A DNA stretch of 64,000 nt from Owenia fusiformis (lineage: Eukaryota; Annelida; Polychaeta; Sabellida; Oweniidae), in the NCBI GenBank assembly GCA_903813345.2, contig CAIIXF020000001.1:60901885-60965884 (forward strand), written 5' to 3'. The translations under genes were made by a program, and so were the position numbers. This document shows, one piece after another, positions 18,356 to 53,783 of the stretch. The notes under the pieces are model-generated. The model was not told the DNA's origin and searched no databases. It saw nothing but the letters and a program-made list of their open reading frames with translations. The stretch's first letter is position 1. Every line of letters starts with the position of its first letter.

Positions 18356-18435
18356 AGATTGCATTTTGGGGGTGTAGTTGATGGGGTTGTAAATGGCTAT
18401 ACTTGCTTTTTTACAAACATTACCAGCTCTTTAGT

Positions 18436-32400: not shown

Positions 32401-35400
32401 ATTGCATGAGACTAGATATAAAATAGTAGTCTATAGAATTTATGAACTGTGGCTATACTAGCATGTAGTGGAACTCTCTTGAACCAAACGGGGAGTGATA
32501 TGACAATTTTTCAAAATGTAAACAATAATTGAACTGTTGGGTCAGTGGGATAAATCTAGTTAGTCATTCCCATTGATGATACCACAATACTTTATACATA
32601 CTTCATGTCATGCCTGCATTCCTACCTTTAAAACAAATAATATTTGAGGAAATGACAACCTTATATTTTATAATACAGACTCTTATATGATGTTTTTTGA
32701 AATTTTGCCAATTCACTCCCATTTGAACTTACATTGGCCAATTAAAAGGCAATTATTGCTTAAAATAAAACAAATATTGGATCCTTTTTAGATTTGGAAT
32801 ATAGTTCTTTATTATGTTCAATTTATTTTTAAGACAAAAATAGTTTTTATGTCCCCACCACATAGTGTGGGGCCATATTGTCGGCCTAGGCGCATCCGTC
32901 CATCCATCCGTCTGTCTGTTCGTCCATTCGTCTGTCCGTCAGATCAAAACGTTTAACCCACCTACATGCAGTCTCAAGTCTGTGGACCCTGAAGAATCAA
33001 ATCAAGACAACAATCAAATCAAGACAAATGAAGAAGAAAGAAGACAACGAATGAAGACACTGATGCAGCAGCAACAAATGATGCCCGTACATCCGGCAGT
33101 TTTCTCCAAAACTGCAACAGATATCAAACAAACAGATGTGAATGAAAAAATGTTAACTCTATACCTACTTCCTGTCAAATGCTGAAATCCTTGCCTGCAA
33201 ACTTAAAGAAAAACTGCTTCACAGTTGCTTTTAAAACTTCAACATCTTGTTCCGCTCACTTCATTCTACATCTGATTAGGTTTTGGACCTGTTTGCTCAG
33301 TCATTGCAGCCATTTTGAATGTCTTAAGAAAAGTTAGCATGCAATAATACTTTGTATCATATTTGAATGGTGTTTTGAGTTGTCATACTTTAACTATTTA
33401 GTAGCTTTAGAAATAATTTCAGGTTTACTTTGTCGTAAAAGCCTATGTTATTGTTAACAGTAGTTATATGCGATAATTTTGTAAAAAGAAATCAGCATCC
33501 ATTTTGGATTTTTACATCCTTAAATTTTGTCTGTAAAGTCTTGTCTGTGTTTTCAGGTGAACCCTTTGGTAGATCAATTTCAAATTTTCAGGAATGATTC
33601 TGAGTATGAAAATTTAGGTCTGATTAGTTTTTTGGCATTCTGGGTAAATGTCAAGGCAGCCATTTTGGATTTTCTGTCCTAAAATCTTGTCTGTAAAGTC
33701 TTGTCTACGCGTTTTCAGGTGAATCGTTTGGTAGATCTATTTCAAATTTTAAAATCTTGTCTTTTCAACTGATTAGTGTTAGGCATTCAGGATGAAAAAT
33801 TTGCAGAATATAAGATCACCCTTTGGTGGGGACATGTTGTACACATTTGTGTTCTTGTTTGAAAATTAGTACATGTAGTATTTTATTGCATGCTTATATT
33901 CCAGTATCAACAATAGTTAACAGTATAAAACTAGTTTAGAAATAGAATATATTAGATATCTTTGTAGATTAAGATAGATTAATTCAACATTTTAATATAG
34001 TGTAACATATCATATTTAAATTCTTATTATCACATTGGACAATGATTATCACATCTTCCCAACACTGAGAACATTTCAACATGAAATATAGCATCATGGT
34101 TGAGTGCAAGCACTTGATTGGACAATGCCTTGACACTAATTCAACCATCTTCAATGGATTTCAACCTTTTTTCAATGGATGTCAACCTTTTTTCAATGGA
34201 TGCATATATGGTTGCATTTGTGCATAATGGTAGAAGCATGAGTAGTAGTGACAAGACCAATGGACATAATGTGTGACAGCTGCATAATGTGACAGCTTTG
34301 TCAGTCCTCGCTGTGACACATGATTATGAACGCGGGAACGTAATTAGATTTAAACTCATTTTTTATTAAAAATATAAATCGTTGTTAGTATTTTGTGCGG
34401 TGAATGACTGTTTGAAATAGGCCAGTGTAATGTTGTTGTTAGATGACATACAAGCTTGATTGTTGAACATGAAAATGGTCTATTTGAAACATGTCGCTGT
34501 TTTGTGATTTATAATTCATACAATTGTAGAATGCGCATGCGTTTTCTGGCATCATCTTTAGAGCCCAATATGGAAATATCTGCATGTGTAAAACAATCAT
34601 CTGTACATCTGCATGTCATACACATGTCATGTCTTTAGAGTGGCTAGTAAAGAGTGAATCTGTTGTTTGACATATACGTTCATTCCATGATTTTTAAGAG
34701 TTTTAATCTGATTTGTTATTTATTCACAAAAAGATACGCAATTCATGATGCTAAATTGTTGCAGTCTTTCTATTCATCAACAAAAGCAATGGTCACATGA
34801 TGACTATCCACTCATTTTATTGGTCAAGATGTTGATATTTTGAAAAAAATGTAAAATGTGAAAGCAATGAAAATGATTCACTTTGGTTTTAACAATATTG
34901 CAAGAGAAAATGAGATGCAATCAGTACATAGTGAAATTCTTTACTAGGCCCATTGTCTTCCACAATAGATGTGTTATTTTTATTATTTCAACATTCAGAT
35001 CATAACATATTCAGATAACCTGGAGTTGATTCCTTTTTGCACACTCGATCACATGCTTTATTATCCCATTGAATGAAGTTCAGAGGGATATAAGGAATGC
35101 CTCCATCCATCTGTCCATACATTGTCCATCCGTCCAGGCGGTAACTCAAATACTGTTGGCCCAATTTTGTTCATATTTTGTACACATATGCCCTATAGGT
35201 GTAAAAGTTCTCAGAAGCTAATTTTCAAAATGATCACTCGTTTAAAAATGGAAGCCATTTTAGTGCCGATTTTACAGTAATTTAGTTACAATATACATAA
35301 AACTGTAATAGCAATATGTTTGAAATGTAAATAAGTTATATAGTACAATTAGTAAAGCTAGAAATATAGGTATTTAAGAAACACTTGATAGCCATCTAAA

Positions 35401-38400
35401 AAAATGGCGGCTTTAATACACGGCCCTATTTTACGATTTTTGCCTTAGCTTGAAAGGTTTTTGAGCAGTTTTGTTCATATTTGAGATGTGAATACTCATA
35501 AGCATGGCACACTGTTTTATGATTCTTTGGCTAGAAAGCGGCCATTTTGAAATGTAGCATTACAACCAGAAGAGTACTTGGAATTATTGAATCTTGTTCA
35601 ACATAATTAGAAAGGTAAGTAGAAGATGTTTAAGGAGTGGTGTGTTAGTCGTGTATTTGTGGTGTTTAAGACTTCAGGGAGTGATATGTTAGTGTTGTAT
35701 GGTGGTGTATTAGTAGTGTATTGTATTTCTCTATGATTGGTCAATAATTTTATTTCATTTACATTGTGACTGATTGATTAACTAATAAACCACCTGTTAA
35801 CTCCAGAGCAAAAAGTTGTCTATTAACGAAAATCACCCGTTACAGATCACTTATATATCATGATCTACTAATTGAGTACTAGTAGGTTATTAGTTGTGTA
35901 TTTGAATGATATGGCAAACTGTTTTTTCACTTGGGCATGACTGTTCGATGGGATTTGTTACGCTTTGGCGTTGCTGTTTTCTAGTTATCGTCTTACCCCT
36001 CCCTAGAACACAGTTGTAAAATGAGTGTGCATAAATTGCACAACTCTGCATTAGATGTTTGAAGATGACCCCAGATGGTCTGAATATGTGAATAGCCCTT
36101 ATTTCAGTTCTTTATGTAGATAAGCAAATTGTTTTGCATGCACCTCTCAGGGCAAGGTTGCATGTTTCTCCCTCATCCTGTTGGGCTCATTCTGATGTGT
36201 CTGCGCTAACTCTCATTTAAATGAAAATGTGATCGTTAAGATCACTGATTATAGCTTAAAGTGTTGTTATTTATATGCTTTCAGATACCGTTAACTGGAG
36301 CCAGGTTTTATATTATGGAGTATAGCTCCTTGCCCTAAGCCTCATAGCATCCCAGCCTATGTAGAGTTAGAAAGTAGATTAGCCATGTAGTTGACATTAT
36401 ACTTGATTGCATGATTTATAATTGTTTTTAATTTGAATTGTTGCCCAATGTGCTTTTTCAATCACTGGAATGGATATGCTGATAAAACCAACATAAAAGT
36501 ATATGTAATTTTATCTGAATTCATGGTAAGATTTAAATGATTTAGTATTTAATGATATAGGGGATAGGCCAATTTAAAAGTATATTTGCATTTTTGTATT
36601 CCATATCATTTGCAAAATCAAGATAAAACATTGCATAAGTACAAAGTTTTACCAAATTGAAATGACAGAACTTTTTTAATATCAATACAGATGCAAATAA
36701 AGTTCTCTTTGCTCTTTGTTCTCTGTATTGAATATATCATAGTTAAAATCTTAACACTTCTCTATTATATGTGTGTCATCAAAATGAGAGATTATCAAAT
36801 AGTTATACTATGTTACAATATTCATTTCCTGTATGCTAAACATTAGGATTTACTTGTTGTAGTTGATGGTGAGTATACTCAATGGAGCACCTGGGGTGAC
36901 TGTAGCGTCACATGTGCTGGGGGTCAACAGTCGAGAAGCAGGGAGTGTACGGGACAAGCCCATGGGGGATCACCATGTGAAGGGCCAAGTTATGAAACTC
37001 GGGACTGTAATACTGCATTTTGCCCAGGTGAGTGTTCGTCAATGTAATGTTGTTTTACATGTTTTTGTTTTACATGTTCTTTTTTACTATAGAATTTCAG
37101 TGTTGTATAAAAATGTAAATTATATTTCAGGTTGACTGCCTTTCACCATCGAAAAATTCTCATTGAACATTTATTAAAGTCACTCTCTTATTTACTCCAG
37201 CATAGCAGGATGGATTTTTACCCATTTCCCCGGCCCCAAAACATAATTGTTACATTTGTGGGTCTATGGTTTATTGACCCTGTCAGTAGAATCAATGTAT
37301 TGAAACACTGTAATCCCGAGAAAATACCAATTTCTGTTGACATACAACATGCTTATTTTTCATTCTAGACATGCATTCATAAATAATTAAGAGATTTCTA
37401 ATTAGAAAATGAGATCAGATAAGAACAATCATCTTATCTCTTAAGTTGTTATTGATGAATTCATTGGGAAATTGCGTGGCAGAAAACAACTTTTGAGATT
37501 AGATTTTAATATTTAATCACAAATGCCAATTTCCATGACCTTCAAATCCAATAAAAAGGTACTTATTTGCATGTTGTATGTTTGCAGTTGATGGGGTTTT
37601 TGAAAAATGGTCCGATTGGGAATCGTGCAATGTTTCATGTGGTGGAGGGATACAAAGACGTAATAGGGTTTGCACTGGGCCTTTTTACGGAGGAGAAGAT
37701 TGTGTCGGTGCAAGAAATGAGTCCAGAGAATGTAACATTCATCCATGTCCAGGTATAACATTTGCTGTGTTCATATTATTATATTTTACATAAACCTCCA
37801 TTTTTCTTGTCACCACCAAAAGTGGCGACATATTATTATGGTTTCCAACTTCATTGTGATGGCGGTTGGTGGTTGGTGGTTGGGGTTCGGTGTCTGTAAC
37901 AAATGGCAGGTGGTGACATTTTCCATGTTAATGCCTTGTTCTAATGGTTTTTATGAAGTTAAGTGAGGTTAACATATTTTAGGTTAAATGTGATATTATT
38001 TCCCTATTTAATTTCATATATAGGCTTATGTACATGTCATCTTTTCATCTTTGTCATATATTCTCATTATGCTTATAAGCACAATTTGTTTAGCAAAATT
38101 TAGCTGTGATTTTTATATGCAGAGGGGTGGAGGGGAGGGGGTAATTAGCTGTATAATTGACTAGAGGGTACATAACTACATATAGAAATCACAACTAAAA
38201 ATGTGGCCTAATTATCAAATAATGTCTTAACATACATTTGTTGATTTACTGTTTGAAGAGATGCTTAGGTAGCCTTTTATGTTGTGTTCCTTCTATGAAC
38301 CAATTTATAAACAACAAAGCATCAACCTTAAAACAAAACATGTGATGATTTACTATACCATTGAAAATGTTCATATTAACAGTGGGCTTCTGTGGGAAAT

Positions 38401-41400
38401 ATGACAAAATCTCAATTTACCTTGAAAATATATCATGTGATTTAAGAAATGAGCACAAGTGAGAGCATGTCTGTAGGAAATGATTTTGAAAAATAATTTT
38501 GTACATTTTCAAAAAAGTGTTATTTTGCACAATTCTGAGAGGGTGCTATGTTGACTTATAATGCATTGTCTCAGACTTAAATCCAATGATTTTATTGAAA
38601 TGGTTGACAGACCTACATTTTACCTGAGCATCTCTTTTATACTTGGATATTTGTAAGAACAATGTAATTGTGCTATCAATGTTGTTTGTGTCTTGTGAAT
38701 AAATTGTATGATGTCACAATGAGCTAAATATGTCACAATGAGCTAAATAAGTGCAGCAGTAAAATTTGTTCCTGGTCTTGAGAATAAAATGTTGTAAGAG
38801 ATGTTACATGTTATTGGTCCAATGTCTATTTATTGACTGTATAGTAGCTAATAGAGGTAGCATCAGTCGTGGTCGTGTCATAGGTTTTAGGTAGATATAA
38901 AGGTGGTAGCAGTGTTGGATTTTATGGAGATATGTGAAAATACCGCTATCTTTATTTTAAAATTGCTATTACCCTTTAGTCTATGGTATCTGCCATGTAT
39001 TATGACATTGGTAGCATTTGTAATACAGTTAAGCTTAATTAAAAGATGTCATTTGTGATGTGTACATGCACATGGTGGTGTTAGCATTCATCAACTGTTC
39101 CTGTCACACATATTAGATGATGTGGAGATAGTGTTTGTTACCGTGTTGCTGTGTTGATAATCCCCACAAATATATAACTTATTTTGGAGGAAATTTTTCC
39201 ATTTTCCATCGTAAAATGTGCTTCACTTCAGTGGATGGTGTGTTGAGTATGTGGTCAGACTGGTTGCAATGTGATAAGACATGCGGGGGAGGAACACATA
39301 GCAGAGAGCGCACATGTCAAGGCCCATTTTATGGTGGGAAAGACTGCAATGGTCCTCTTAAAGAACATAAAAATTGCAATACCCACAACTGTCCAAGTAT
39401 GTTTAAAGTATTTCATATATCATTGCCTTAGCTAGGATTTCACAAATGGGCAACCTTTTTTGTTGTTGATGAGACAAAAATTGTCGGAGGCTGATCTAGC
39501 ATTTAATTTTTTAAATTCTTGGCCCATTTAGGCAAAAATCATTTGGAGCCCAAAAGTCACCTTAAAAGGTAATTATGCAGTACTCTTGTAATGTAGTACT
39601 TTAAAATAAAAATGACCATACATGTACCCATGTGCTTTCTAGTGGCTTATGCACAAAGTCGCTGTATTTCATTCAAATTTTAATTCAGCTAATTATTTAC
39701 TTAGTTGATGGTAGAGTATCAGATTGGAGCAATTGGTCAGAATGTACGAAATCATGTGGACAGGGTGTACAGAGCAGAGACAGAATCTGTGAAGGGCCCT
39801 ATTATGGTGGTACACCCTGTAGTGAACATTTGAATGAAACTCAGGAATGTCAGACACATCCTTGTCCAGGTATTCATCCATTGAATCAGTACTTTAATAA
39901 GAATATATGAAAGCAATTTAAGCTATGGCATACAGGTGACAGGTCATCTCAACCTCAAGTCAACTCAACCCAGTCAAACTCAACCCCAAGTCAAGTCAAC
40001 CCCAAGTCAAGTTGGGGTTGAGTTGACTTGTGGTTGAGTTTTACTGGGTTGAGTTGACTTGGGGTTGAGATGACCAGAAAGCATACATGCATATCCATGA
40101 GCAAATATGATTAACCTTTATAACAACATAACATACTAGTAAACTTCAAAAAAAAGAAAAAAATTAATTAAAGTACATGCAAATATCAGAAATACATAAA
40201 ACTAAATATATAGCATATCGGGAATTTTTGTTTATTGAATCGTTTAACTCTTCAGGTTGGTGGTTCAGAAAATTGAAAATGAAATAAGATGATAATGTAG
40301 TGTATATCCTGGGTGTATATTCCTTCTTACCCTTCATTCAACTCAAACTTATAATTTTACTACTGCACTTATGTTGATGTGACCCTAGTATAGAGGAACA
40401 TCCTGATATTTCAGTTGACGGAGTATTTGAGCCCTGGTCTAACTGGACAATGTGTAATGTAAGCTGTGGGGGAGGGGGACAGTCACGATTTAGAGAATGT
40501 TTGGGTCCTTTCTATGGAGGATTAGAGTGTGATGGGGAATTCAATGAAACACGAGATTGTAATATCCATCATTGTCCAGGTATGACACTACAAACTACTG
40601 GTAAATTAATTCTTGTCAAGATTTTTTCAAAATAATTTCCTTAATAGTACATTCCAAATATATTAAGACTTAATTTAGGCAAATTAGTTGGTTTATACAG
40701 GTTCAGAAACCATTATTAAACCTTTCTTAATATCCCTCTCGAGCCACCTTAACATCCTATTAGAGCCCTCTTAAAATCCCAAATAGAGCCACCCTAAAAT
40801 CCAAATAGAGACACCTTAACATCTTACTAGAGCCACCTTAACATCCCATTAGAGCCACTTTGACATCATACTCAGAGCCAAATTCACATTCCAATAGAGC
40901 CACCTTCACATCCCGCTAGAGCCAGATTCACATCCTACTAGAGCCACCTTCACATCCCACTAGAGCCACCTTAAAATCCCAATAGGGCCACCTTAACATC
41001 CCACTAGAGCCACCTTAACATCTTACTAGAGCCACCTTAACATCCCATTAGAGCCACTTTGACATCATACTAGAGCCAGATTCACATTCCAATAGAGCCA
41101 CCTTCACATCCCGCTAGAGCCAGATTCACATCCTACTAGAGCCACCTTCACATCCCTCTCTAGCCACCTTAAAATCCCAATAGGGCCACCTTAACATCCC
41201 ACTAGAGCCACCTTAACATCTTACTAGAGCCACCTTAACATCCCATTAGAGCCACTTTGACATCATACTCAGAGCCAGATTCACATTCCAATAGAGCCAC
41301 CTTCACATCCCACTAGAGCCACCTTCACATCCCACTATAGCCACCTTAAAATCCCAATAGGGCCACCTTTACATCCCACTAGAGCCACCTTGACATCATA

Positions 41401-44400
41401 CTAGAGCCAGATTCAGATTCCAATAGAGCCACCTTCACATCCCACTAGAGCCAGATTCACATCCCACTAGAGCCACCTTCACATCCCACTAGAGCCACCT
41501 TAACATCACACTAGAGCAACCTTAAAATCCCAATATGGCCACCTTAACATCCCATTAGAGCCACCTTAACATCACACTTGAGCCACCATAACATTTCAAT
41601 AGAGCCACCTTCACATCCCATTAGAGCCACCTTCACATCCCACTAGAGCCACCTTAAAATCCCAATATGGCCACCTTAACGTCCCATTAGAGCCACCTTA
41701 ACATCACACTAGAGCCACTGTAACATTCCAATAGAGCAACCTTCACATCCCACTAGAGCAACCTTAAAATCCCAATAGGACCGCCTTAACATCCCACTGA
41801 ATCTACCTTAACATTGCAATAAGGCCACTTTTATATCCCGAAAGGCCCACTTTAACATCCCACTTTAGCCACCTTAAGCTATTGATAATGCTACCTTTAG
41901 TTCAGTGAGATCATATCTTATATTTTGTAGAATGTTGTCTCAATTCATATCCTACATTGTTTCTTGTAGTGGATGGTGAATTGACTCCCTGGTCAGAATG
42001 GGACCCTTGTAGCCTGGAGTGTGGGGCGGGGGTGCAGTGGCGATACAGAACTTGCTATGGACCATTTTATAATGGAGTAGATTGTGTCGGTGCCCTCAAT
42101 GAATCCCAGTCCTGTAACACTCACCATTGCCCTGGTAGACATTCTATTAGTTATCTCCCTGTTTCAGTGTGTTATGATGCAGTTTTAGTAACTTGTTTGA
42201 TGAGCATTGTGTCAAGTTTGATATCTGCATGTTATAGTGAGTGCACTGTTATTCTCTGAGAATTCTAGGAATGATAAAACCAGATAATTCTTACTGCTGC
42301 ACTTTTTACAGATATAAATACTACACACGTGATTGAAATAATATTGTAAACTGGTATCTTTCTTAATGCATTGCTTGATCTCATTCTGTTCATTTTGTAA
42401 TCCTGAAATTACATTTAATAATTAAAACTGAGCAAATTAAGATATGTAGATCCTGTTCATTACTTAGATAAAAAAAACAAAGTACAACCAGCTATAAGAA
42501 TAGAAACACCAACATCCCAAACTATGACCAGCTCAAACCTGACAGTAACATACTGGTGCCTCTTTTGTTAGAGATTTAACAATCAATTCATGTTTTGTTT
42601 CTAATATGCAAAGAAAACCCTTGAAAAAACAATGTAGAACTAACAATATATTATTTTTGAAGAAACACCCTTGAAAAATGTTAAAACCACCAATATGTTA
42701 TTTTCCAGTTGATGGCTATGTGTCAAATGTTAAAACTACCAATATGTTATTTTCCAGTTGATGGCTATGTGTCAAAGTGGGGTGACTGGGAGAATTGTAG
42801 TTTGGAGTGCGGAGGAGGGGTAACTCACAGAGTCAGACATTGTATTGGACCTTTCTATGATGGCAAAGATTGCGCAGAACCTCTCACAGAGAGCAGGATG
42901 TGCAATACACACTTCTGCCCAGGTAATGCCTATTATAAAATTGTATCATTGTTATTTCAGAATTTCATGATTGATTTGTGTACTTTGTTTATTCAAGTTG
43001 TTATCCAGTCCTTATTTAAGCCATTATTTGGGTCAAGTCATCTAATGTCTTGTGATATGAAGATTTTCAGTTCAATTTCCAATATATGTTTGAAAGTAAG
43101 TCAACCATTGGGGTTTGTAGAAAAAACTGGGTACCGGGTACTGGGTACCATATGCTAAATGCTCTCTGCTGTTATTAAATGTACAGAATGTCATATGTAT
43201 TTCAGTTGATGGAATATTGACGACTTGGGGAGATTGGATCGACTGTAATGTGACTTGTGGTGGTGGGGTAGAGTGGCGCCACCGCACATGTATTGGGCCA
43301 TTCTATGAGGGGGCACCATGTCCAGGAGCCTTGCGGGAGTCCCAACTGTGCAATACTCAACCTTGTCCGGGTACACTTCAAAATCTATTTTTATATTGTA
43401 CCCTGTTTCGTGAATATAGTACTACAGTATATATATTATTGAGAAAATGAAAATGTCAGATTAGTCATGAAAATACTTGAATTTCTCGCAATAGGGTGAA
43501 ACAACTCTTTAAAATTATTGTAAAGATCATAGGTCTTGGATTCATTGTGTCCCCAAATGATATTTAAGATATTGTAATATTTGAAAGGTTTTAAGAGAAA
43601 AATGTTCTTACATGCATTTTTCAGATTAAATTTTTAATTACATCATGTAGATGTGTGTTTAAATAAATAGGTAGATGCTCATCGACTTGTGATTGTGATA
43701 AAAAACTCAGTATCCCAAAATAACAAAATAACATATTTTTTCAAGTTACTGAGCAAGTCACTGCTGCACTTATAGTATGCCCATATATGGGCGTTAATAT
43801 GAAAATTGTGTATTAACGTTATGTCGTACTGTGCTTAATCTTGTGAACATCCTCCAATTGCATGGTTTCAGCCATCATCCCATCTGTTCCTTCCTTCTGC
43901 AAAGTGGATGATATCTGGAACCTTGTATTTGGAGAATGCATTGTGTTTGCTATTGTTGAATAATAATGTGCATTCATTAACCTCTGTTTTAGACTTTGAT
44001 GCATGTGTGTTTATATTGCAAAATGAGATAGATAGTGGTGTATATATTTTAGTGATGTGAAATTAGTTGGTTTTATCAGCTTTGAAAGCTTTGTGTCTGA
44101 TTTTAATTTGCTGCACCATAATTTCAGATACAGTAAAACCTGTAAATGGGAACACCTCTAAAGAGAACACCTAGAAATGTGAACGCTTCAGTTCAATGTT
44201 TTGGTTGTTTCTTCAAAATCCATGTTTTCTGAACCTCATTAAGTGAACACTTTTACCTAATTCTATTTTGACATTCTCTTGATTAAGGTTTTACTGTATT
44301 ACCAAAGCATGTTCATTTAGCTGCCAATGTTTTATCATATATAAGTATCATTTACCCAGCATTGTATACATGTACAGTATATACATCAGTATAATATATA

Positions 44401-47400
44401 CAGTATTGTATATACAACAGTGTCGATGAATCAAGCCTGATAGGCTTCCATGCATTTCATTTTGATTTTGTTTTAGCAGCAAATGGGGATACATTTCGTT
44501 ATTTATTACAAGAAGAAAATTTCAAACTTTTATCTTGGGAAATTTTGAATAGTCTTGATATTAGCAAAATATTGATACACAATCAGTCAAAATGTTATTT
44601 GATTTCTCCAGCTTTTGAAAAATCAAGTGACTAACTAATATTATTGATGATTGGTGTGCTTCTAGTTGATGGCGTCTGGGAGCTATTTAGTGATTGGTCA
44701 GTCTGCAGCGTCACCTGTGGTGGGGGGAGCCGATACAGGACACGTAATTGTACAGGGCCATACTATGGTGGTGCTGAATGTCAAGGGGACAGTCAGGAGA
44801 CTGAACCATGTAACACAAACTCATGCATGAGTAAGTAATTAAGTTGAGTGGAAGTCATGAATGAGTAAGTAATTAAGTTGAGTGGAAGTCATGAATGAGT
44901 AAGTAATTAAGTTGAGTGGAAGTCATGAATGAGTAAGTAATTAAGTTGAGTGGAAGTCATGAATGAGTAATTAATTAAGTTGAGTGGAAGTCATGAATGA
45001 GTAAGTAATAAGGTTGAGTGGAAGTCAAACATGAGTAAGTTATTAAGTTGATTGATGCATGAGTAAGTAATTAAGTTGAGTGATGCATGAATAAGTAATC
45101 CATTTGAGTGAAATTCATGCATGAGTAAGTAATTAAGTTGAGTGGAAGTCATGTATGAGTAAGTAATTAAGTTGAATGGAAGTCATGCATGAGTAAGTTA
45201 TTAAGTTGAGTGATGCATGAATAAGTAATTAATTTGAGTGAAAGTCATGCATCCATAAGTAATTTATTTGAGTGAAAGTCATGCATAAGTAAGTAATTAA
45301 GTTAAAGTTATGCATGAGTAAGGAATTAAGGTGAGTGATGTTGAATAAGTAATTAAGTTGAATGGAAGTCATGCATGAGTAAGTAATTAAGTTGAGTGGA
45401 AGTCATGTATGAGTAAGTAATTATGTTGAGTGGAATACATGCATGAGTAAGTAATTAAGTTGAGTGTTGCATGAATAAGTAATTAATTTGAGTGAAAGTC
45501 ATGCATAAGTAAGTAATTAAGTTGAGTTAACTCATGCATGAGTAAGTAATTAAGTTGAGTGTTGCATGAATAAGTAATTAATTTGAATGAAAGTCATGTA
45601 TAAGTAAGTTATTAAGTTGAGTTAACTCATGCATGAGTAAGGAATTAAGTAGAGTGATGTATGAATAAGTAATTACGTTGAGTGGAAGCCATGCATGACT
45701 AAGTGATTAATGTTTGGTCAAATGTAAAGTAATTTGTTGAATAGTTAAATTCTGTCTCCCTCTTTAAAAATACTAAAGAATTTTGAAATTGCCCCCAATC
45801 CATTCTGAACATTCCAGTTTCCTCATCAATTAAATTATATTTGAGATAAATATTTGGTTAACTTCTAATTTTTGACTTAAAGAATATGTTCCATGATTGA
45901 AGATCCAATAAGGTTATGCTTAATCTTAGTCTCTGTCTTCTAGTCCCAGGAGAGTGGCTTGACTGGGGTCCCTATGGATTGTGCGACCAGACATGTGATG
46001 CTGGGAAGGCTATGAGAAAGCGGGAGTGTAACATGACCACACACGCCCACCTGACTGACCCCTGTATTGGGAATGACACAATGTTCCAAACATGTAACAA
46101 CATCTCTTGTAACCCGGGTAGGCATAAGTTATCATATACATGTAGTTTTTTCAAAGGTCAACTTTTTTCCATCACCATAGTTTCATCAACTATTTCATTG
46201 ACTCCTGAAGGTGAAGCTTTCAGCCATTTTCAATAATATATACGTTTTCCAAATTCAGTCATATAAAGTATATATGGTACCTGCTACACAGCAGGCTTAA
46301 AGAGTGTCATTATGAAGCATTTTGAGAAAAAGCTTCCTAAGAAGGACTTTGTTCCTGTGTACCACCTCAGACCTCCTTTGGTAAGAAGCTTTTTGTCAAA
46401 ATGCTCCTAAACAACATATATAAAGGAAAGCAATTAATCTTACTGTTTAAAAATCCATGTTTTGTATATATAACCTTCATCCCCTATCACTGTTCCACAG
46501 CTAGTTACTTTGACAGAACAAAATGGATGAACTTCCTGGTTATGAGGTTTTTGTTTTCTCAATTTAAACCGTCAAGTCAAGTTGCAGATTATAATTTGGA
46601 ACAAAGCTGGAAAATATAGTCTTGGTTTTATAACTTTCTTTGATTTGGAATTTGTTTTGTTAATGGAGTTGCAATTCATATATTTAGTCCCTCGCTTTTG
46701 TTACATTGACGAAAGTCCGTTATATTACCAATGTGTACTTTGACGACTTACGTCATTGTGACAAAAGCGATGGTCTAAATGCATGAATTACAGCTTTATT
46801 TAAAAATCAAATTCCAAAGCAAGAGCATTTCTAAAAACTAGACTATATTGTCTAGCTTTGTGCCAGATAATCCCCAAACAATCCCCAACTTGACTTATAA
46901 GTAGGTTTAAAGTGTCTGTGCGATGCTCATGGGGTCAAAATTTAGTTTATACATGTTTTAAATGAAGTAAACACCACTTACAAGTCAAACCATGTTCCGT
47001 TCTTGTAAGTCTTTATATAAATGTGAAATTTGATGTTCAAAATAGGGAACCCAATGTCAAGTGCCAATCATGACATCACGATCAGAATAGGTTTTGAACT
47101 GGTTGCTGCCACTGCATTCAATGCAGTGCGGAAATGATTCAACTTTGACTACTTTGGAGCCACGATTTTTCCTCCAATGAGCGAAAAATATAATACCTCA
47201 ATTGGAGCTCCCCGACCCTGTGTTGCGTTTTCACAAAGCTTGTCTTGCAGAATTACGTTCTGGCCAGTCAAAATACAGTATAGAAACTATACACGTTGAG
47301 TTGATCCTGTTACACAACTCAATGCTGTTTAATTTTTTTTGAGAAGCATTACTCCTTTCTGGCCAATCAGAACACAGTATAACAGGAACACTTTTGAATT

Positions 47401-50400
47401 TACATTCGAGTTGCATAACGCATTGCCGATTAAAATCCATAACTGGTTCTGATGGGGACTTCATGTTTTTTTCTGGGAAATCTTATTTTGGCACTGAAAG
47501 ACAATCAGATGAAGATGTGAGTCTGTTGGTATACTGTTTCTACCAACCAATACCCATTGAATCTATTTGTGTAAAGAAAAATAAATGGAAATTATCAAAT
47601 TGGCACTTTAAATCGAGAAAACAAAAAATATGTATCCAGGAAGTTCATCCATTTTGTTACATTGACGTTCCGTCATAGTAACTAGATGTGGAACAGTGTC
47701 TATGTGGTATTTTATATTCCAGTTCCCTCCTGTAGTTATTACTATGAGCTTGGCTTACGCCAGAACACAACTGTTGACATTGACCCTGATGGCCCTGACG
47801 GTGAGAATGAACCATTTCAAGTGTTCTGTGATATGACAACAACTGAAGATGGCATCACATATGTCTGTAAGGGAAACTCATAGAACTCTCTCTATTACAA
47901 TCATAACATACTTGTTCAACTGTTCATAAATTATCTATATTTATCTGCCACTCTGTATTTATGGCAATTTGTAGCACTTTTAATTATTTACTCTGTTTTA
48001 CAATGTTACTGTACTTATAATTAAATTATAAGAAATGTTCATAAACAGAATTTCAGCTTTACAAGTTGAAATACAGTAGACATGTCTTATCTGAACATCA
48101 CTGGGACCAGGCAAAACAAGTGTTCACATGTAGAGTTTTCAGATTAGGGAGGTGTTTAGATACACAAGTTTTACAATTTCCTAAATTATGAGTACTCTCC
48201 ATTGCTGTTCCAGTACATGATATGATGGAGCGGACACAGGTCCAAGGTTACGAGGGTGCAGGAGAATACACGAAACAGCTAATTTATGCGAATAACACAG
48301 TGACGAACATTGCTCAGGTTACGCATCTAGTCGACTATTCGTTGGAATGTAAACAATTCATCAAATGGGAGTGCAAGTCAGCGATTCTTGAGCATCAGTA
48401 TTATGAAGACGAACGGACTACTTTCTGGCAAAACCGTTACGGGATAGATATGAAATATTGGGGTGGAGGTCCGCCAGATGGCTATGGATGTGCATGTGGC
48501 CTGAATCACTCTTGTGCAGATCCTGCAAAAACATGCAATTGTGATGCCAACGATGACCGTTGGGGAACAGACGAGGGATTTATTACAAAGAAATTGGACC
48601 TCCCTGTAACATCTTTCTTGGCCGGAGATACAGGTAATACATGTAGAAACTGTTATATAAATGTACTTAGAGACATTGCTATTGAAAAATGATATCAGTT
48701 ACATATTTTGATGTTTGTAGAATACAAAATGGTGACAATTTAAAGAAACCACATGGCTACATGTATCATATCTGTCTGTAGATGGGACATGAGGTCCAAA
48801 GTACAAAAATTAGATAAGAAGTGACAGTCTGTGGTGTCAGCTAGAACCAAGTTTACCTAATGAACACGTCTTAGTCGACACAAGATTTTTGGCTATCCAA
48901 AGTACATGCATGTACATATTTCAAGCCATGCAGTTGAGATTTTCAGAGGCAGATAGATGGAGGCAACAACTTTGGTGAGCAGCTAGAGGAATCTATTTAC
49001 CTTATACTACATACTTGTATATGCAACAAGACATGTTCAAACAGATTTTTTATCCCATCAAACAGAGTTCAAGGGGATATACGGAATGACTCAATCTGTC
49101 TGCAGGCCCGTAGCCAGGATTTGCCAAGGGAGGTTCAGTTTTCAAGATTTTCCAGGGTGGGTTCACATCTGACAATTTTGGCCCAAATATGGCTAAAATC
49201 ACTTGAGAAATGCTCAAAATGGTGAAAAACTGCATGATTTTGAATGAATTTTTGGCCAGGTGGGTAACCCCTCCTGGCTACGGGCCTGGTCTGTCTCCAT
49301 CCGTCCCTCCGTAAGTATGTTCATCGGTCTGTCCAGGCAATATCTCAAATCTAGCTTGTGTTGCTAGGTAACTATGAAGACAACCAGAAGCTTTTTTTTA
49401 CAGACTGGCTGAGCTTAAAAAATGTTAATAAATCGAATTGGTATTACACTAGGTAGTACTACCCCACCAGAAGATGCCTATGTGACACTAGGCCCCCTCA
49501 TATGTGTCGGCCAGGGAGAGCCACCCACAGAGGCTGAAGAGGCTGCGCAAGAGGGGAACTATGATGACTATTTTGAATATTTTTGATGAGACATTCGTAA
49601 GATTGGTATTTTAAATGTTTTCTTTTTCTTAAGGAATGTCTTCTTTAATTGGATGGCAATGCAGAATGCAGGAATGCTGTACAGTAAAACCTTATAGTCT
49701 GAACACCACTGGGACCAGTGTTCTTATTTAGGGCTTTTTATATAGAAGTCCATGGTGGATGACAAAATGGACCGAGAAATGTTTACATTGAGAGGTGTAT
49801 GGAACTGAGAGGTGTTCAGATATACAGGTTTTACTGGATTTTGTTTTTCAGTTTTCAAATGTTTAGGAATGTTTTTTAAAATGATTGTCTTTTTGAATGA
49901 TTATGTTAATTCAAAATATCTCTATTGTATTTTTTTTATTGTATAAGCAAGTTTTTATGTGATTCATTTATCCTGACATTTTTATAAGTGTTAATCTTTG
50001 GCCATAAATCTTGCATTTTGTCAAGGAATGTTCTTTAAGGTACTCTCTCATTTAGGGTTTATCTTATGCCATTATTACCACTTTCTTCTATTATTAAGTA
50101 TTTTTATTAATCTTTCTTAATAAAATTTTCATGATTTTTACCCTCAGTTTTGTAATTTTATATATTTTTTTCAAAATCATCTACAAGTTTTCAGAAGTTC
50201 AAATCTGACATTAAATTTAAGATTTGACCTTCAATGGCCTTCTCAAGGTGAAAAGGTCAAAAGGGTGTTTTTTCAACTTGCTTCAAATTGAACACATTTT
50301 TTTCAAAATCATCTACAAGTTCTCAGAAGTTCAAATCTGACTTCAAATCGACCAAACTTAAACTTTAAATCATCTAAAAGTTCTCAAGGTCAAAAAAGAG

Positions 50401-52987
50401 ATGTATATTGGTGATACGCAAAAAATTATTCAAGATGGCTACCACTTTAAAAATGGCGGGTAGTTTTAGACAATCTTATGTTTTTCATTATTTGAAATTT
50501 TGGTAGTATATTCACAACATATATCTATTTCATATATATTCCGTGTTTTTCACCCGACCCCAGCGGCCGTGAAAAACAGAAATTTGCGTTAATTTTCAGA
50601 TATTTTATACCTTTACTATACTCTAATGAAAGGCAACTTAGAGTAGATTGCAAATATTGTATTGTTTTTCTGATTTGGGCTTGTAAAATTCAAAATGGCC
50701 GCCTAATGCGAGATTTCGCAATAATTTTCTGATCTCTTAGAAGTATTGCTATATTATACTCAAATTGAAGGAATTTTAGAGTAGGTTACAATTATGGTAT
50801 TGTTTTTCTGATTTGTGCCTCAGAAAATTCAAAATGGCTGCCTATACATGTAGAGCAGGAATTCGCCATTACTTACAAATATCTTTAAGTGCAGTTACAT
50901 GATACTACAAAGATCTCAAGTGTTTATTGAAGGGAAGAGTAGATCGTGAATATTACATCGTGACTGTACAGATACATGATTTAAATAGTCTTCGTTGGGA
51001 TTTGCTACTCCATGGAGTTGCCGATTTCTAGTTTCCAATTTTCAAAATTGCCAACTTTGCTAAGAATTCCCATGTACTGAAAATCTTAATAAAAAGTGAA
51101 TATTTGTTGAGGAAAGGTCTGTAAGAAATGTTGAGGGAGATATTGCAGTTAGTTCATTATGTTTTCCCTGATGGTATAAAAGGCAGTTGGGATAGAATAT
51201 CTCTAAAATTTAGTTCCTTATTAAATGAAGCCTCAAACTGCATTTAGGAACCTCACCAAAAATAAAATTCATTGAGTTGAGAATTTTATTCTGGTTCCTT
51301 TCTCATAATTAATCAGATATGTAGCTACATGCCATGATAATTACATCTAGGTACGGATTGGCAAGGAGAACAGGGCTTGTTAACCATAGGGGCCCTTATT
51401 TGCTACGGACGTGTAGACCCCTCTGATATACCAGATATCCCCAAAATAAACTCTGAGGAGGAGAATTACGACGATTATTTCTAAAGCTAACGTACCAATT
51501 GCCTTCATTGTCTTATGAATATTTTCTCTAGGAATGCTCCATAAAGCATAGTATCCTGGATTATTACTTGAGAATCATGTTACACCTTTTTCAAAAAGTC
51601 CAGGGTACTACTATGGTCTAGAAATTAGAGAACATGCACTTTGGAATGACTTTTCTATTACAGATGTGCTATATTTGTGATGTTGATGAAATAATGAAAT
51701 GTTTGCTGCAAACTTGGGATGTTCACGAAACTAGGGTTTTTTGAGTTGTGTTTTGAAAGTTTGCTCACTATGTTTATTAATCAAACTCACACTGATTGCT
51801 GTACATTTTGAATGTTATACATATTGAATGCTATACATATTGAATGTTATACATATTGAATGCTATACATATTGAATGTTGAATTGAATGATTCATGCAT
51901 ACCCTATTGCATTTAAGTTAAATCATTGAGGGAATTCAATTGTGAGAATGTGTCATTGTACTTATGTTGACTGAGGAAATGGAGCATCGCAGAATTTTTG
52001 AAAAGTGAATTTGTTATTTATTGTTTCCTCTTGCTATATAGTATATCTAGACAATATGTTAATTATTTCGAAATGTATATCTGTATATGGGCAGTTCAAG
52101 TCCATTTTCTGAAATATTGCTCATTAGCTTCTAGAATATATCCCAATAGATATTGGTCTATTGGTCTGATGCAGTTAACTTCTCAGAAAACTTATCAATC
52201 TTCCTCATTTTAAGCTTCGTGTTTAAAAGCTACATCTTCTATGCAACAATTTTGTGTGCATGATCCTCAGAGTTGAATTCCCTTTTGTATTCCACAGTTG
52301 AAGGTTGTCATGCATTTGGAAATGTCACAAAATTCATGAAGGCTCATATTGATTATCTACATCTATTCCATATCCAGGTGTAAGATATTGTATGACTGAG
52401 ATGCATGCTTCATTGTATGAATCCATTTGTTATTGTACTACATTACAAGTAAACCATGCATGTCCACAGCATTGATGGTGTTTGCTCTGGTTGGCTCAAA
52501 GCCAATCAGTAATGTTCATGCATGGCATATAAACATATCATATTAACATGTCAAATCACTTTCAGTTAGTTTAAAAAATATATATTAGTTTAACATCAAA
52601 AGTTGGAATCATTTATAATTTTGAATTTTTTCAAGTCATCATTTTCATTCCAGTTTTGATATTTTAAGAAAGGTTATTAATTCAGCAAATTCTGTTTACA
52701 CCAAAAAATCATTTTCTCCTGTTAGGTGTTGCTTTGCCTCAAAACAGTCATATACAAAGATACAGTTTGATGCATGATTCATTAGAATTAATCATTGTCT
52801 TAAATTCAGTTAGTTTCAAATAATTGTACTTCTATAACTTTTTTCAGGTGAGACAGAGTCCAAAGAAGATGGTACAGAGGAATATATTGAACAAGGCTAT
52901 GGCACTGTTGGACCACTTATATGTTCAGGACGTTCTACACCACAAAGTGAGAGTGAAGGTGGCTATAGCTACTACAACTATAAATAA
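22959..52987 (+). CDS. Large secreted PAN-EGF-SRCR-TSP1 array protein with CNTNAP-like fibrinogen-related end (spliced)
   Basis: Twenty-eight constitutive exons plus one of three alternative last exons (at 49453, 51351 or 52848). The summed length is 5127 nt with either of the first two last exons and 5133 nt with the third, all multiples of three, giving 1708 or 1710 residues. The order is signal peptide, PAN/apple, EGF, 2 TSP1, SRCR (two exons), 19 TSP1, and a fibrinogen-related domain of the contactin-associated-protein type. All introns after the first are phase 1, so every module can be gained or lost without breaking the frame. It has no transmembrane segment, so it should be an extracellular matrix, mucus or humoral protein with disulphide-rich rods. 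I do not know this architecture from a named family; coadhesin and SCO-spondin-like proteins share the TSP1 array only. Start is the ATG at 22959, followed by a hydrophobic leader. Confidence 0.88.
24256..25317. mobile_element. 1062-bp TIR DNA element in intron 1 of the TSP1-array gene
   Basis: The ends are inverted: CATGCCCGGTGATC at 24256 and its exact reverse complement ending at 25317. Similarity continues for about 50 bp (AAATGGATGGAGGGGGATTA). Target-site duplications ATTCA lie at 24251-24255 and 25318-25322. Inside is a second, long hairpin at 24846-25004 with arms of about 70 bp. No transposase is encoded, so it is non-autonomous. The insertion site is a 26-bp tandem repeat (GATTCTAAATTGTTATATTC) whose other copies run up to the EGF exon acceptor. 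Confidence 0.85.
25411..25546 (+). CDS. EGF-like exon of the TSP1-array gene
   Basis: 136 nt, phase 0 in and phase 1 out. Six cysteines in EGF order: VCQKDLCKNDGYC, then YACICKEKWGGTNC. This is the exon that converts the gene from phase 0 to the phase 1 used by all later modules. Confidence 0.88.
25934..26464 (+). CDS. TSP1 modules 1 and 2 (exons 25934-26113 and 26297-26464)
   Basis: Module 1: DWGDWEEWSVCSVTCGNGYS, 180 nt. Module 2: WESWSDWEECSTFTTCGRG, 168 nt. Both have the W-x-x-W-x-x-W/C motif and the six cysteines of thrombospondin type-1 repeats. Both are longer than the 165-nt standard of the later array and lack the GPxYGG segment, so they form an older, more divergent pair placed before the SRCR domain. 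Confidence 0.88.
26673..27231 (+). CDS. SRCR domain, exons 26673-26831 and 27088-27231
   Basis: The first half reads GVIEIYNDKTKLWGDICYDG and ACKQIGF. The second half reads SGSPPNGDYL, SCKGDEVALQQC and GIKC. Six cysteines and two exons make it a group A-like scavenger receptor cysteine-rich domain. The internal intron is also phase 1. SRCR domains bind polyanions, microbes or extracellular proteins; the ligand here is unknown. Confidence 0.85.
27430..27600 (+). CDS. TSP1 module 3
   Basis: 171 nt with NGDWANWSKWGNCSVTCAEG. It is the first module after SRCR and has a six-nucleotide longer loop than the array that follows. CSVTCAEG fits the POFUT2 O-fucosylation pattern. Confidence 0.86.
28226..28968 (+). 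CDS. TSP1 modules 4-6 (28226-28390, 28519-28683, 28804-28968)
   Basis: Three 165-nt exons, separated by short introns of 128 and 120 nt, start the uniform array. The motifs are DGIWESWGTWSEC, DGIWDDWSQWSDC and DGKWSEWQDWEDC. Module 4 has CKKLCGGG (no O-fucose acceptor). Module 6 has CNVTCGGG. Confidence 0.88.
29581..30334 (+). repeat. 377-bp tandem duplication containing a whole TSP1 exon
   Basis: 29581-29957 and 29958-30334 align base for base with an offset of 377. I saw only about four substitutions before the last few bases, two of them in the exon (one silent, one His-to-Pro). The unit carries intron, acceptor, exon and donor, so the copy is ready to splice. Confidence 0.92.
29759..30300 (+). 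CDS. TSP1 modules 7 and 8 (29759-29923 and 30136-30300)
   Basis: Two almost identical 165-nt exons with DGIWDEWVEWSKCSVECGGG and GPYYGGAECEGP. They differ by HHCPG versus HPCPG. CSVECGGG has Glu where O-fucose would attach. Confidence 0.9.
30703..30867 (+). CDS. TSP1 module 9, with a GC donor
   Basis: 165 nt, DGVWDNWGPYGECDVSCGSG. The exon ends TGTCCAG and is followed by GCAAGTG, the standard consensus of GC-AG introns; no GT donor keeps the module intact. Phase is preserved. Confidence 0.87.
31111..31183. repeat. Truncated copy of the element at 32849-33835
   Basis: ATGTCTCCACCACATAGTGT and GGGGCCATATTGTCGGCCTA repeat the left end of the larger element. The copy stops after a short CCATCCGTCCATACG tract. 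Confidence 0.7.
31768..32199 (+). CDS. TSP1 modules 10 and 11 (31768-31932 and 32035-32199)
   Basis: Two 165-nt exons with a 102-nt intron, the shortest of the array. Motifs: DGKWEEFGDWFECSVSCGNG (Trp-to-Phe in the second W position) and DGKWSEWGEYGKCSSSCAGG. Confidence 0.88.
32849..33835. mobile_element. 987-bp element with ATGTCCCCACCA terminal inverted repeats
   Basis: Left end ATGTCCCCACCACATAGTG, right end TGGTGGGGACAT. It has a CCGTCCATCCATCCGTCTGT microsatellite near the left end and two degenerate internal repeats around TGTAAAGTCTTGTCT (33530 and 33695). It occupies the longest intron of the array (32200-36862). No protein is recognised. Confidence 0.6.
35060..35570. repeat. Interspersed repeat family A, copy 2
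   Basis: It matches 5745-6330 in order: CCCATTGAATGAAGTTCAG, CCATCCGTCC, TTGTTCATATTTTGTACACA, TATGCCCTATAGG, TTTTAGTGCCGATTTTACAG. The rest of the intron 33836-36862 is AT-rich with no exon recognised. Confidence 0.6.
36863..37752 (+). CDS. TSP1 modules 12 and 13 (36863-37027 and 37588-37752)
   Basis: Both are 165 nt. Module 12: DGEYTQWSTWGDCSVTCAGG, with GQAHGG in place of GPxYGG. Module 13: DGVFEKWSDWESCNVSCGGG and GPFYGGEDC. Confidence 0.88.
39232..40579 (+). CDS. TSP1 modules 14-16 (39232-39396, 39705-39869, 40415-40579)
   Basis: 165 nt each: DGVLSMWSDWLQCDKTCGGG, DGRVSDWSNWSECTKSCGQG and DGVFEPWSNWTMCNVSCGGG. Each has GPxYGG; all three fit the O-fucosylation pattern. The intron between 15 and 16 holds the hairpin at 39942-40075. 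Confidence 0.88.
39942..40075. repeat. 134-bp near-perfect hairpin of GTTGAGTTGACTT words
   Basis: GGTCATCTCAACCTCAAGTC at the left is mirrored by the right end (GAGATGACC). Each arm is itself made of 10-17-bp repeats of CAACCCCAAGTCAA, so the structure is both tandem and inverted. Confidence 0.88.
40736..41870. repeat. 22-bp intronic minisatellite with higher-order structure
   Basis: About 50 copies of GAGCCACCTTMACATCCCAC plus TA. Blocks of nine units (about 196 bp), marked by GAGCCACTTTGACATCATAC, recur near 40852, 41048 and 41250. It fills most of the intron between TSP1 modules 16 and 17. Confidence 0.93.
41970..42134 (+). CDS. TSP1 module 17
   Basis: 165 nt, DGELTPWSEWDPCSLECGAG with GPFYNGVDC. 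Glu replaces the O-fucose Ser/Thr. Confidence 0.88.
42676..42773 (+). repeat. 49-bp tandem duplication of a 3' splice site and exon start
   Basis: 42676-42724 and 42725-42773 differ at one base. Each copy has TATGTTATTTTCCAG followed by the exon start TTGATGGCTATGTGTCAA. The upstream acceptor leads in phase 1 to a TGA after 16 codons, because 49 is not a multiple of three, so the downstream copy must be used for full-length protein. Confidence 0.9.
42758..43370 (+). CDS. TSP1 modules 18 and 19 (42758-42922 and 43206-43370)
   Basis: 165 nt each: DGYVSKWGDWENCSLECGGG and DGILTTWGDWIDCNVTCGGG. Module 18 begins at the second copy of a duplicated acceptor. Confidence 0.88.
44131..44296. mobile_element. 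166-bp mariner-type MITE
   Basis: TIRs CAGTAAAACCT and AGGTTTTACTG flanked by TA on both sides, the Tc1/mariner target. The inside carries GAACACCTC/GTGAACAC words. Related, more degenerate copies lie at about 48074-48173 and 49682-49836. Confidence 0.7.
44666..44830 (+). CDS. TSP1 module 20
   Basis: 165 nt, DGVWELFSDWSVCSVTCGGG and GPYYGGAEC. It ends in NSCM where the other modules have CP, because the last codons CATGCATGA belong to the repeat unit of the following minisatellite. Confidence 0.87.
   Translation: MMASGSYLVIGQSAASPVVGGADTGHVIVQGHTMVVLNVKGTVRRLNHVTQTHA
44824..45700 (+). repeat. 34-bp minisatellite built from copies of a 5' splice site
   Basis: The unit is ATGCATGAGTAAGTAATTAA followed by GTTGAGTGGAAGTC, with shorter 26-28-bp variants. 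The first copy is the exon end plus donor of TSP1 module 20. I count roughly fifteen GAGTAAGT words over 0.87 kb, each a near-consensus donor. Confidence 0.93.
45944..46117 (+). CDS. TSP1 module 21, divergent last module
   Basis: 174 nt: GEWLDWGPYGLCDQTCDAGK, then a loop with NMTTHAH instead of GPxYGG, ending SCNPG. It keeps the cysteines and phase 1-1 but belongs to a different TSP1 branch from modules 4-20. Confidence 0.85.
46488..47698. mobile_element. TIR element of about 1.2 kb ending 24 bp before a splice acceptor
   Basis: Left CACTGTTCCACAGCTAGTTA and the reverse complement of the right end (CACTGTTCCACATCTAGTTA) match for about 100 bp with small indels, including AAAATGGATGAACTTCCTGG in both. 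The target-site duplication is unclear (CTAT-like words flank it). Inside, 46640-46840 is a further inverted repeat around CCTCGCTTTTGTTACATTGA. No protein is recognised. Just upstream, 46300-46410 holds another hairpin (GAAGCATTTTGAGAAAAAGC). Confidence 0.75.
47723..48633 (+). CDS. CNTNAP-like fibrinogen-related domain, exons 47723-47866 and 48214-48633
   Basis: The first exon reads CSYYYELG, TVDIDPDGPDG, PFQVFCDMTT. The second reads SLECKQFIKWECKSA, KYWGGGPPDGYGCACGLNHS, CNCDANDDRWGTDEGF and LPVTSFLAGDT. The YWGG...CxCGL...CNCDAD...W..D.GF...LPV...DT order is that of the discoidin/laminin-neurexin family protein CNTNAP, where this fibrinogen-like domain ends IGPLRCxGD. That final strand is missing here and is supplied by whichever last exon is spliced on. 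The donor of the first exon is TCT|GTAAGG. Confidence 0.87.
49060..49350. repeat. Interspersed repeat family A, copy 3, interrupted by a MITE
   Basis: CCCATCAAACAGAGTTCAAG and GGGATATACGGAATG match the starts of copies at 5745 and 35060. The CCATCCGTCCCTCCG part resumes after the inserted element. Confidence 0.55.
49103..49288. mobile_element. 186-bp MITE with CAGGCCCGTAGCCAGGA inverted ends
   Basis: The 17-bp ends are exact inverted repeats, flanked by GTCTG at 49098-49102 and 49289-49293. It is nested in a family A repeat, so it is the younger insertion. The 5-bp duplication does not identify the superfamily with certainty. Confidence 0.85.
49453..49586 (+). CDS. Alternative last exon A of the TSP1-array gene
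   Basis: 134 nt after a CACTAG acceptor, phase 1. It codes YVTLGPLICVGQG, completing the fibrinogen-related domain, then a Glu/Ala linker and the tail GNYDDYFEYF-stop. The three Tyr next to Asp/Glu fit tyrosine sulfation sites. A candidate AATAAA lies at 50119-50124. Confidence 0.85.
49682..49836. mobile_element. 155-bp mariner-type MITE, degenerate copy
   Basis: CAGTAAAACCT at the left, AGGTTTTACTG at the right; TA precedes the left end only. Internal GAACACCACTGGGACCAG is shared with a remnant at about 48074-48173. It lies within the presumed 3' UTR of last exon A. Confidence 0.55.
50160..50410. repeat. Degenerate repeats of the family at 1990-2160
   Basis: TCATCTACAAGTTYTCAGAAG-like words occur three times (about 50176, 50310, 50375), with TCAACTTGCTTCAAATTG near 50274. 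Between this and 51350 are AAAATGGC-rich stretches typical of interspersed repeats; no exon is recognised. Confidence 0.5.
51351..51484 (+). CDS. Alternative last exon B of the TSP1-array gene
   Basis: 134 nt after TTACATCTAG, phase 1, the same length as exon A. It codes GLLTIGALICYGRVDPSD, then SEEENYDDYF-stop. It replaces, and cannot follow, exon A because both end in stop codons. Confidence 0.85.
51805..51885. repeat. Short tandem repeat, period about 19-20 bp
   Basis: Four copies of ATTGAATGYTATACAT between last exons B and C. The rest of 51485-52847 has no recognised exon; a small MITE-like hairpin (CCATGCATG ... CATGCATGG) lies near 52450-52530. Confidence 0.75.
52848..52987 (+). CDS. 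Alternative last exon C of the TSP1-array gene
   Basis: 140 nt after TTTTTTCAG, phase 1. It codes YGTVGPLICSGRS, then a Ser/Glu stretch and GGYSYYNYK-stop. The tail is Tyr-rich like A and B but ends in Lys and is less acidic around the tyrosines. AATAAA at 53778-53783 is a plausible end of transcript. Confidence 0.85.
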
Positions 52988-53777
52988 ATTGACAATGACA
53001 TACAGTATCAGGTCGTAATCATTAAATCAGTTAAAGAGGCAGCAAAGCTTAGAGATAAGTTGAGGATAGCGTATCATTATGTCAGAGTTTTCTTTGTTAA
53101 ATTTTTTTTCAAAATTTGTTCTGAATTGAACATTATAAGTCATGCTTTTTGAAGCTAATTTGGCAATGATTCTAAAATGGGGTTGATGAATTTGAATATT
53201 TTGCATCTCAAATCATCAATTTTGTCCATATGGAAATAATACAGTCATGTTGATATGAACATTTTAAACTTTCTATCCTTTATTGCCACTTTACTGCTTG
53301 GAATCAGCTTTTTATGAATGTCAAGCCACCATTTTAATCATTTGGTCTTGTTCTTTCCGATAGGAACACTCATAAGCTGGACTTATGGTGTTCGGAATAT
53401 CAGATGAAAACCATTTCTGTATCTTTATGCTGTCTTTCTCTATGTGACTAACCAAACAATCAAGAGAAATATGTTGATGGGACTGAATTGAAAAAACTAG
53501 CAGAAATTACCATTTGTTTGATGACTCCAACTCTCTAATTATTTTTGAAGATTTAGATTGTAAAATGGGTACACACTGTATAAGCTTAGGGCCAACCCTC
53601 TCAAGTCATTTTCATTATAATTGCAAAGTATCTGGAAAAATACAAGAACAATTAATGAAAGACATTCTTTTCAGTAACAAATACAGCATTGTAACTCAGC
53701 TATCTGTCTTTTGGTAAAATAATGTGCAAGGTTAATTGAAATCCACCATTTTGAAACATGTCATGTATAATTAACAT

Positions 53778-53783
53778 AATAAA
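53778..53783 (+). terminator. Candidate polyadenylation signal after last exon C
   Basis: AATAAA about 790 nt after the stop of exon C, just before the convergent exonuclease gene. Nothing else is recognised in 52988-54304. Confidence 0.4.

Follow-up and report, generated by a model that had tools for sequence, protein, structure and literature searches.

Three candidate alternative last exons for the fibrinogen-related end domain of a large TSP1-repeat protein in Owenia fusiformis

The gene body and its end domain

The stretch analyzed here, a window of 64,000 nucleotides from the polychaete Owenia fusiformis, carries on its forward strand a series of exons that we read as one gene. An open reading frame at 22941..23477 matches Pfam PAN_1 (E 4e-9) and presents a hydrophobic N-terminus that resembles a signal peptide by eye; from its strand and order we take it as the start of the gene. 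Next come TSP1 exons, at least 21 of them, arrayed over 25855..46117 (counted from where the open frame that holds the first one begins); 20 were found by motif scan and one by Pfam (ORF 26257-26469). Pfam TSP_1 was also returned for four other TSP1 exons that were tried, while ORFs 26943-27311 and 44395-44631 gave no Pfam match; the eight upstream ORFs submitted gave PAN, TSP1 or nothing. Strand, order and phase argue that the PAN exon and all of the TSP1 exons belong to one gene. Its product is apparently a large, secreted protein with PAN, at least 21 TSP1 units and, at its end, a fibrinogen-related domain of the CNTNAP type.

Two nearly identical TSP1 exons in the array (29680-29955 and 30057-30356, 377 nt apart, with flanks alike) are a recent tandem exon duplication in this gene, unlike the old copies of its last exon described below. 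Minisatellites with units of 34 bp (44821-45710), 39 bp (54919-56790) and 106 bp (60095-61040) lie within and downstream of the gene. At the other end of the window, at 1240-1530 on the minus strand, an open frame contains GGIEQNPGP, a sequence similar to 2A-like peptides that certain non-LTR retrotransposons encode.

The end domain begins with two exons on the forward strand, FR1 at 47723..47866 (acceptor score 9.99, donor T/GTAAGG) and FR2 at 48214..48633 (donor CAG/GTAATA). FR1 is matched by Pfam Fibrinogen_C at E 0.0019 with 18.5 bits, a score under the curated cut-off of 22. Within the same genome the end domain matches that of a paralogue (E 3e-14) and that of a gene at C1:48.57 Mb (L003), which we take, by eye from its layout, to be a CNTNAP or neurexin IV-like gene. 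The CNTNAP-type assignment comes from this last similarity, at E 3e-8. While the two domains are homologous, that of L003 is internal, with stretches that look by eye laminin-G-like, EGF-like and membrane-span-like after it, whereas ours is C-terminal; the CNTNAP layout of an internal domain, further modules and a membrane span is not that of the present gene. PDB sequence searches with the end domain returned no credible relative. A single-sequence structure prediction of FR2 had a mean pLDDT of 29.8 and was useless for reading the fold.

The last exons A, B and C

Downstream of FR2, on the same strand, lie three candidate alternative last exons. Exon A (49453-49586, 134 nt) has the acceptor CTAG, the closing strand LGPLICVG and a tail that runs to EGNYDDYFEYF and a stop. 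Exon B (51351-51484, 134 nt) has the acceptor CTAG, the strand IGALICYG and a tail that runs to EEENYDDYF and a stop, and exon C (52848-52987, 140 nt) has the acceptor TTCAG, the strand VGPLICSG and a tail that runs to EGGYSYYNYK and a stop. The encoded proteins are STTPPEDAYVTLGPLICVGQGEPPTEAEEAAQEGNYDDYFEYF for A, TDWQGEQGLLTIGALICYGRVDPSDIPDIPKINSEEENYDDYF for B and ETESKEDGTEEYIEQGYGTVGPLICSGRSTPQSESEGGYSYYNYK for C. The first two bases of each exon complete the split glycine codon of FR2, and the stop follows 18-24 residues past the closing strand. Coordinates and reading agree with the original prediction, which had described three separate exons of phase 1, each with its own acceptor, a stop and a strand of the form (L/I/V)G(P/A)LICxG, and had noted the equal length of A and B. 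Phase 1 is not diagnostic of these exons, because the TSP1, FR1 and FR2 junctions that were read by eye share it.

A scan of the 64 kb on both strands with an exon model (AG, phase 1, [LIVMF]G[PASN][LIVM]xCxG, stop) found A, B and C only, in 12 rows of which the rest are further AGs inside these exons; 400 dinucleotide shuffles of the forward strand at 48634-54500 gave no match to the model. Genome-wide protein searches (E<=10) with A as the query returned, besides A, exons B (E 0.57) and C (0.68); for query B, they returned itself and A (0.80), and for query C, itself and A (0.72). Despite these weak E-values the homology is convincing, because nothing else is matched but exons on the same strand at distances of 1.9 and 3.4 kb. 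The reading that three related last exons would each contribute a closing strand to one and the same domain is supported by the protein matches and by the scan. By best matches and position (E 0.57-0.80), A, B and C are taken as homologous exons in tandem, each with an acceptor of the same phase and a stop.

How the closing strand varies in related domains elsewhere in the genome was read from a loose motif scan that itself demands such a strand; rows of that scan, which also took in the paralogue, were discarded by eye when they looked unlike the exons. LGPLKC, LGNLEC and IGPLEC, from a neighboring family in one stretch (L004), speak for the closing-strand reading, and ITSLQC (also L004), ITSVSC in a second stretch (L007) and ISDLEC in a third (L005) speak against it; two of these six domain ends are GPLxC, one is GNLxC and three are otherwise (SLQC, SVSC, DLEC). 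The same scan did not find a GPLxC closing strand with its cysteine in the CNTNAP-like L003. The cysteine of the strand is invariant in five of five last exons (A, B and C, and the candidates P1 and P2 of the paralogue), which argues that the last exon is probably needed for the fold of the domain.

At the nucleotide level the relationship has faded. No blastn match (word size 7, E<=10) pairs exons A, B and C with one another, and in a repeat scan of 47600-54500 no listed repeat pairs two of them; a 19-nt direct repeat in that scan touches the end of exon A. In the protein core, 7 of 16 residues are identical between A and B, 9 of 16 between A and C and 10 of 16 between B and C, with pS of 0.61-0.76 against pN of 0.27-0.38; when the NYDDYF word of the tails is added, A and B have 0.87 synonymous and 0.26 nonsynonymous differences per site. 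We simulated neutral change equal to the nucleotide change observed, and took as P the frequency with which as many residues were kept. For the core, P was 0.0043 (A-C), 0.0014 (B-C) and 0.083 (A-B). For the core plus tail of A and B, in which 13 of 22 residues are identical and 26 of 66 nucleotides differ, it was 2e-4. An open frame is weak evidence in itself, as 11-35% of neutrally evolved copies remain open in a simulation that ignores indels. The three exons look homologous but old, with the DNA similarity between them gone and the protein core kept, and there are signs of selection on the encoded protein.

The signals that surround the exons differ in strength. The acceptor matrix was built from 17 of 18 acceptors (that at 18378 was omitted as outside the TSP1 array; those at 29759 and 30136 carry identical upstream letters). 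The acceptor of C is the strongest of the three (7.79), followed by A (1.64) and B (-0.77); P1 and P2 of the paralogue score 0.47 and -0.72. The 17 training acceptors, each left out in turn, score from -0.5 to 12.5, so that B and P2 fall below all of them and A below most. Weak proximal and strong distal acceptors fit a regulated choice, and they also fit a minor use of A and B. A candidate poly(A) signal for A, AATAAA at 50119..50124 on the forward strand, is 533 nt past its stop, and a candidate for C, perhaps also for B, is at 53778..53783 on the same strand, with another copy of the hexamer at 53855. Chance alone makes AATAAA common in this DNA (142 expected in the window, 157 counted). 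Between B and C there is neither AATAAA nor ATTAAA, where 2.6 would be expected (P of none 0.044, 500 shuffles). The expectation of three poly(A) clusters is therefore doubtful, as it would require a non-canonical signal for B; B may instead share the poly(A) site of C.

The paralogue and the tails

The paralogue is found at C1:24.219-24.230 Mb on the minus strand, with TSP1-like exons by eye, with FR1, and with FR2 split over two exons. Two candidates for its last exon, alike in phase, are P1 (C1 24225526-24225360, minus strand; L002 4360-4526; protein beginning NSEQEKGYFTIGPLECYGK) and the distal P2 (C1 24218988-24218861, minus strand; protein ELPEKGNISVGPLECHGTNNDSLSHPENSDELDWDYGYSYY, then a stop). 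A search confined to the window and selected genomic stretches gave matches of A with P2 (E 0.010), C with P2 (E 0.057), B with P1 (E 0.012) and C with P1 (E 0.001). Genome-wide protein searches with P1 and P2 (E<=10) found only the queries themselves, and the kinship accordingly rests on the small-set matches and on position. The tail of P2 is tyrosine-rich and acidic. P1 continues past its closing strand in a hydrophobic frame that is not tyrosine-rich (NHFLVSTCLFIYLYRLVL) and then stops; it may have a weak or missed donor, the hydrophobic part may be an end of membrane or GPI type, or the copy may have decayed. In the 30 kb of the paralogue region that was read there is no further convincing copy of the last exon. 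Between P1 and P2, a tandem array with a 59-bp unit extends over about 3.7 kb (C1:24.2216-24.2252 Mb; L002 572-4228). A zinc-finger-like open frame downstream of the paralogue, also on the minus strand (L006, C1 ~24.209 Mb), probably marks the next gene.

A tree built from 28 hand-aligned columns of A, B, C, P1 and P2 has no branch with good support: the values are 83/90 for A+B and 68/74 for P1+P2, and a tree that holds C and P2 together is not rejected (p-AU 0.25). In the strand GPLEC, P1 and P2 have in common a glutamate where A, B and C have isoleucine, which hints at separate duplications in the two genes or at coevolution of the last exons with each gene's own domain. The word GYSYY, present in the tails of both C (52961..52975, forward strand) and P2, hints at a common distal exon. 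A word of that length is common to the two tails with P 0.0025 in shuffles of the last 13 residues. When the six pairs of tails were compared, only A-B and C-P2 shared more than two letters.

The word common to A and B is NYDDYF, at 49557..49574 and 51464..51481 on the forward strand. A codon-degenerate pattern for this word matches the unspliced genome sequence twice, at these two tails, and the reversed word as control matches four times; the number of matches is ordinary given the control, and their places are not. The two copies differ by five bases, all five silent and none coding. A five-base change that is silent throughout arose once in 200,000 neutral simulations, a figure not to be taken at face value because the word was chosen after it had been seen.

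Sulfated tyrosines typically have several acidic neighbors and no basic ones. The net charge of the tail is -8 in A, -6 in B, 0 in C and -6 in P2, and within five positions of every tyrosine there are 3-5 acidic residues in A and B, compared with 0-2 in C. At least three acidic residues within five positions are seen for three of three tyrosines in A, two of two in B, none of four in C, one of four in P2 and none of two in P1. Sulfation is plausible for the tails of A and B, which are acidic around their tyrosines, and not for the neutral tail of C; the term sulfotyrosine-like, which had been applied to all three tails, suits the first two. The tails of A, B, C and P2 hold 2-4 tyrosines each. 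For comparison, the window has 1058 stop-ended frames of at least 30 residues, and in 31 of them the last 12 residues include no fewer than three tyrosines; B has two.

Readings of the arrangement and known parallels

We judge it likely, from the genomic sequence, that A, B and C are tandemly duplicated and alternatively spliced last exons. The donor at 48633 would be joined to one of three competing acceptors, so that all molecules would share their body and differ in which of the three ends they carry. Cleavage near 50119 would favor exon A, since it would come before transcription reaches the acceptors of the other two; B and C, which may share a poly(A) site near 53778, would be separated by the choice of acceptor alone. 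In transcripts that use B, exon C would then be inside the 3' UTR, for which there is a parallel in the oyster alternative oxidase (AOX) gene (PMC5589949). The tails would probably serve as short docking peptides, acidic and prone to sulfation in A and B (NYDDYF) and neutral in C (GYSYY). A wider proposal builds on this: in a family of giant secreted TSP1 proteins, entire last exons would round off the end domain and add either NYDDYF, acidic and sulfated, or the neutral GYSYY. This set of interchangeable C-termini, the GYSYY type among them, would be older than the gene duplication, and the choice of last exon would long have directed one body to different partners. Taken with all of its parts, that proposal is tentative and rather doubtful.

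Other readings have to be weighed against alternative splicing of all three exons. Only one or two of the exons could be in use, and the remaining one (B is the likeliest) would be a minor or dying copy, rarely chosen in splicing. The weak acceptor of B and the lack of a canonical poly(A) signal between it and C would fit such a copy, as would the acceptor of A, also below most of the training set. Against a dying B, however, stand its open frame, an NYDDYF that differs from that of A by silent changes only, and a core that keeps 10 of 16 residues of C (neutral P 0.0014), and we regard this explanation as unlikely. That A, B and C are fragments of other genes or of pseudogenes, found downstream by chance, is highly improbable: the window holds no other motif-bearing exon, the three share strand, phase and a matching domain end, and the layout of the paralogue is similar.

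It is also possible, if somewhat doubtful, that the ends are alternative and yet their tails do not act as sulfated sites for docking, with selection on the closing strand and the tails serving in DOPA or dityrosine cross-linking or being tolerated as flexible ends. The tail of C, with net charge 0 and no good context for sulfation, favors this view, and so do the 2-4 tyrosines found in the tails of A, B, C and P2 alike and the invariant columns, which are mostly in the closing strand. The tail words, on the other hand, also look constrained, with NYDDYF exact in A and B and GYSYY in C and P2 (P 0.0025); the other four of the six tail pairs share no word longer than two letters.

For docking tails on alternatively spliced last exons, human fibrinogen gamma' is the nearest functional parallel by analogy. 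Its end probably arises from an intronic poly(A) site and not from duplicated exons, and the fold is complete in both forms. A single tail replaces AGDV there, whereas the alternative exons A, B and C also carry the closing strand. The gamma' chain, whose fibrinogen-related domain ends in 20 anionic residues that include two sulfated tyrosines, modulates the activity of thrombin and FXIII (PMC11525374); another report gives the use of an alternative polyadenylation site as the hypothesized cause of this end (PMC10370639). Gamma' and the A/B/C gene are alike in an alternative 3' end with a tyrosine tail on a fibrinogen-related domain, the choice of end being our inference for A, B and C.

The oyster offers a genetic parallel. 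Terminal exon 10 of its alternative oxidase gene, CvAOX, is tandemly duplicated with alternative choice of the 3' splice site, the copies have a stop each and equal coding length, and one transcript includes both copies with the second downstream of the stop; tandem exon duplication with alternative splicing is said there, from cited work, to be common in animals (PMC5589949). Both genes have tandem copies of the last coding exon with their own stops. CvAOX has two copies with 63.5% DNA similarity, against three here, among which DNA similarity from exon to exon is undetectable; CvAOX is an enzyme of the mitochondrial inner membrane, while the product of the A/B/C gene is apparently secreted; and splicing has been shown for CvAOX, while A, B and C are known from the genome alone. 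Unlike those of CvAOX, the A/B/C tails are of different character, and candidate exons also exist in a paralogue. The original prediction that no named family has such an arrangement went too far, as fibrinogen gamma' and oyster AOX each have a main part in common with it. Among the papers listed by literature searches, which covered few subscription papers, there is no earlier description of this last-exon arrangement. What differs here is the combination of three old copies with a closing strand, two kinds of tail and a second gene alike.

If the three ends are made, a matrix-type protein swaps its terminal peptide while its body remains constant, a simple route to new partners; if this is true, the gene would be an invertebrate counterpart of fibrinogen gamma' that took another genetic path. 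Judging from the paralogue, the arrangement either survived the gene duplication or arose again after it, and this makes neutral noise less likely.

The genome also appears rich in this class of domain. A genome search with Fibrinogen_C (PF00147) scored at least 150 matches among 317 candidates, many of them clustered on C11 and C12, and these clusters and the other matches point to a large set of fibrinogen-related genes in this genome.
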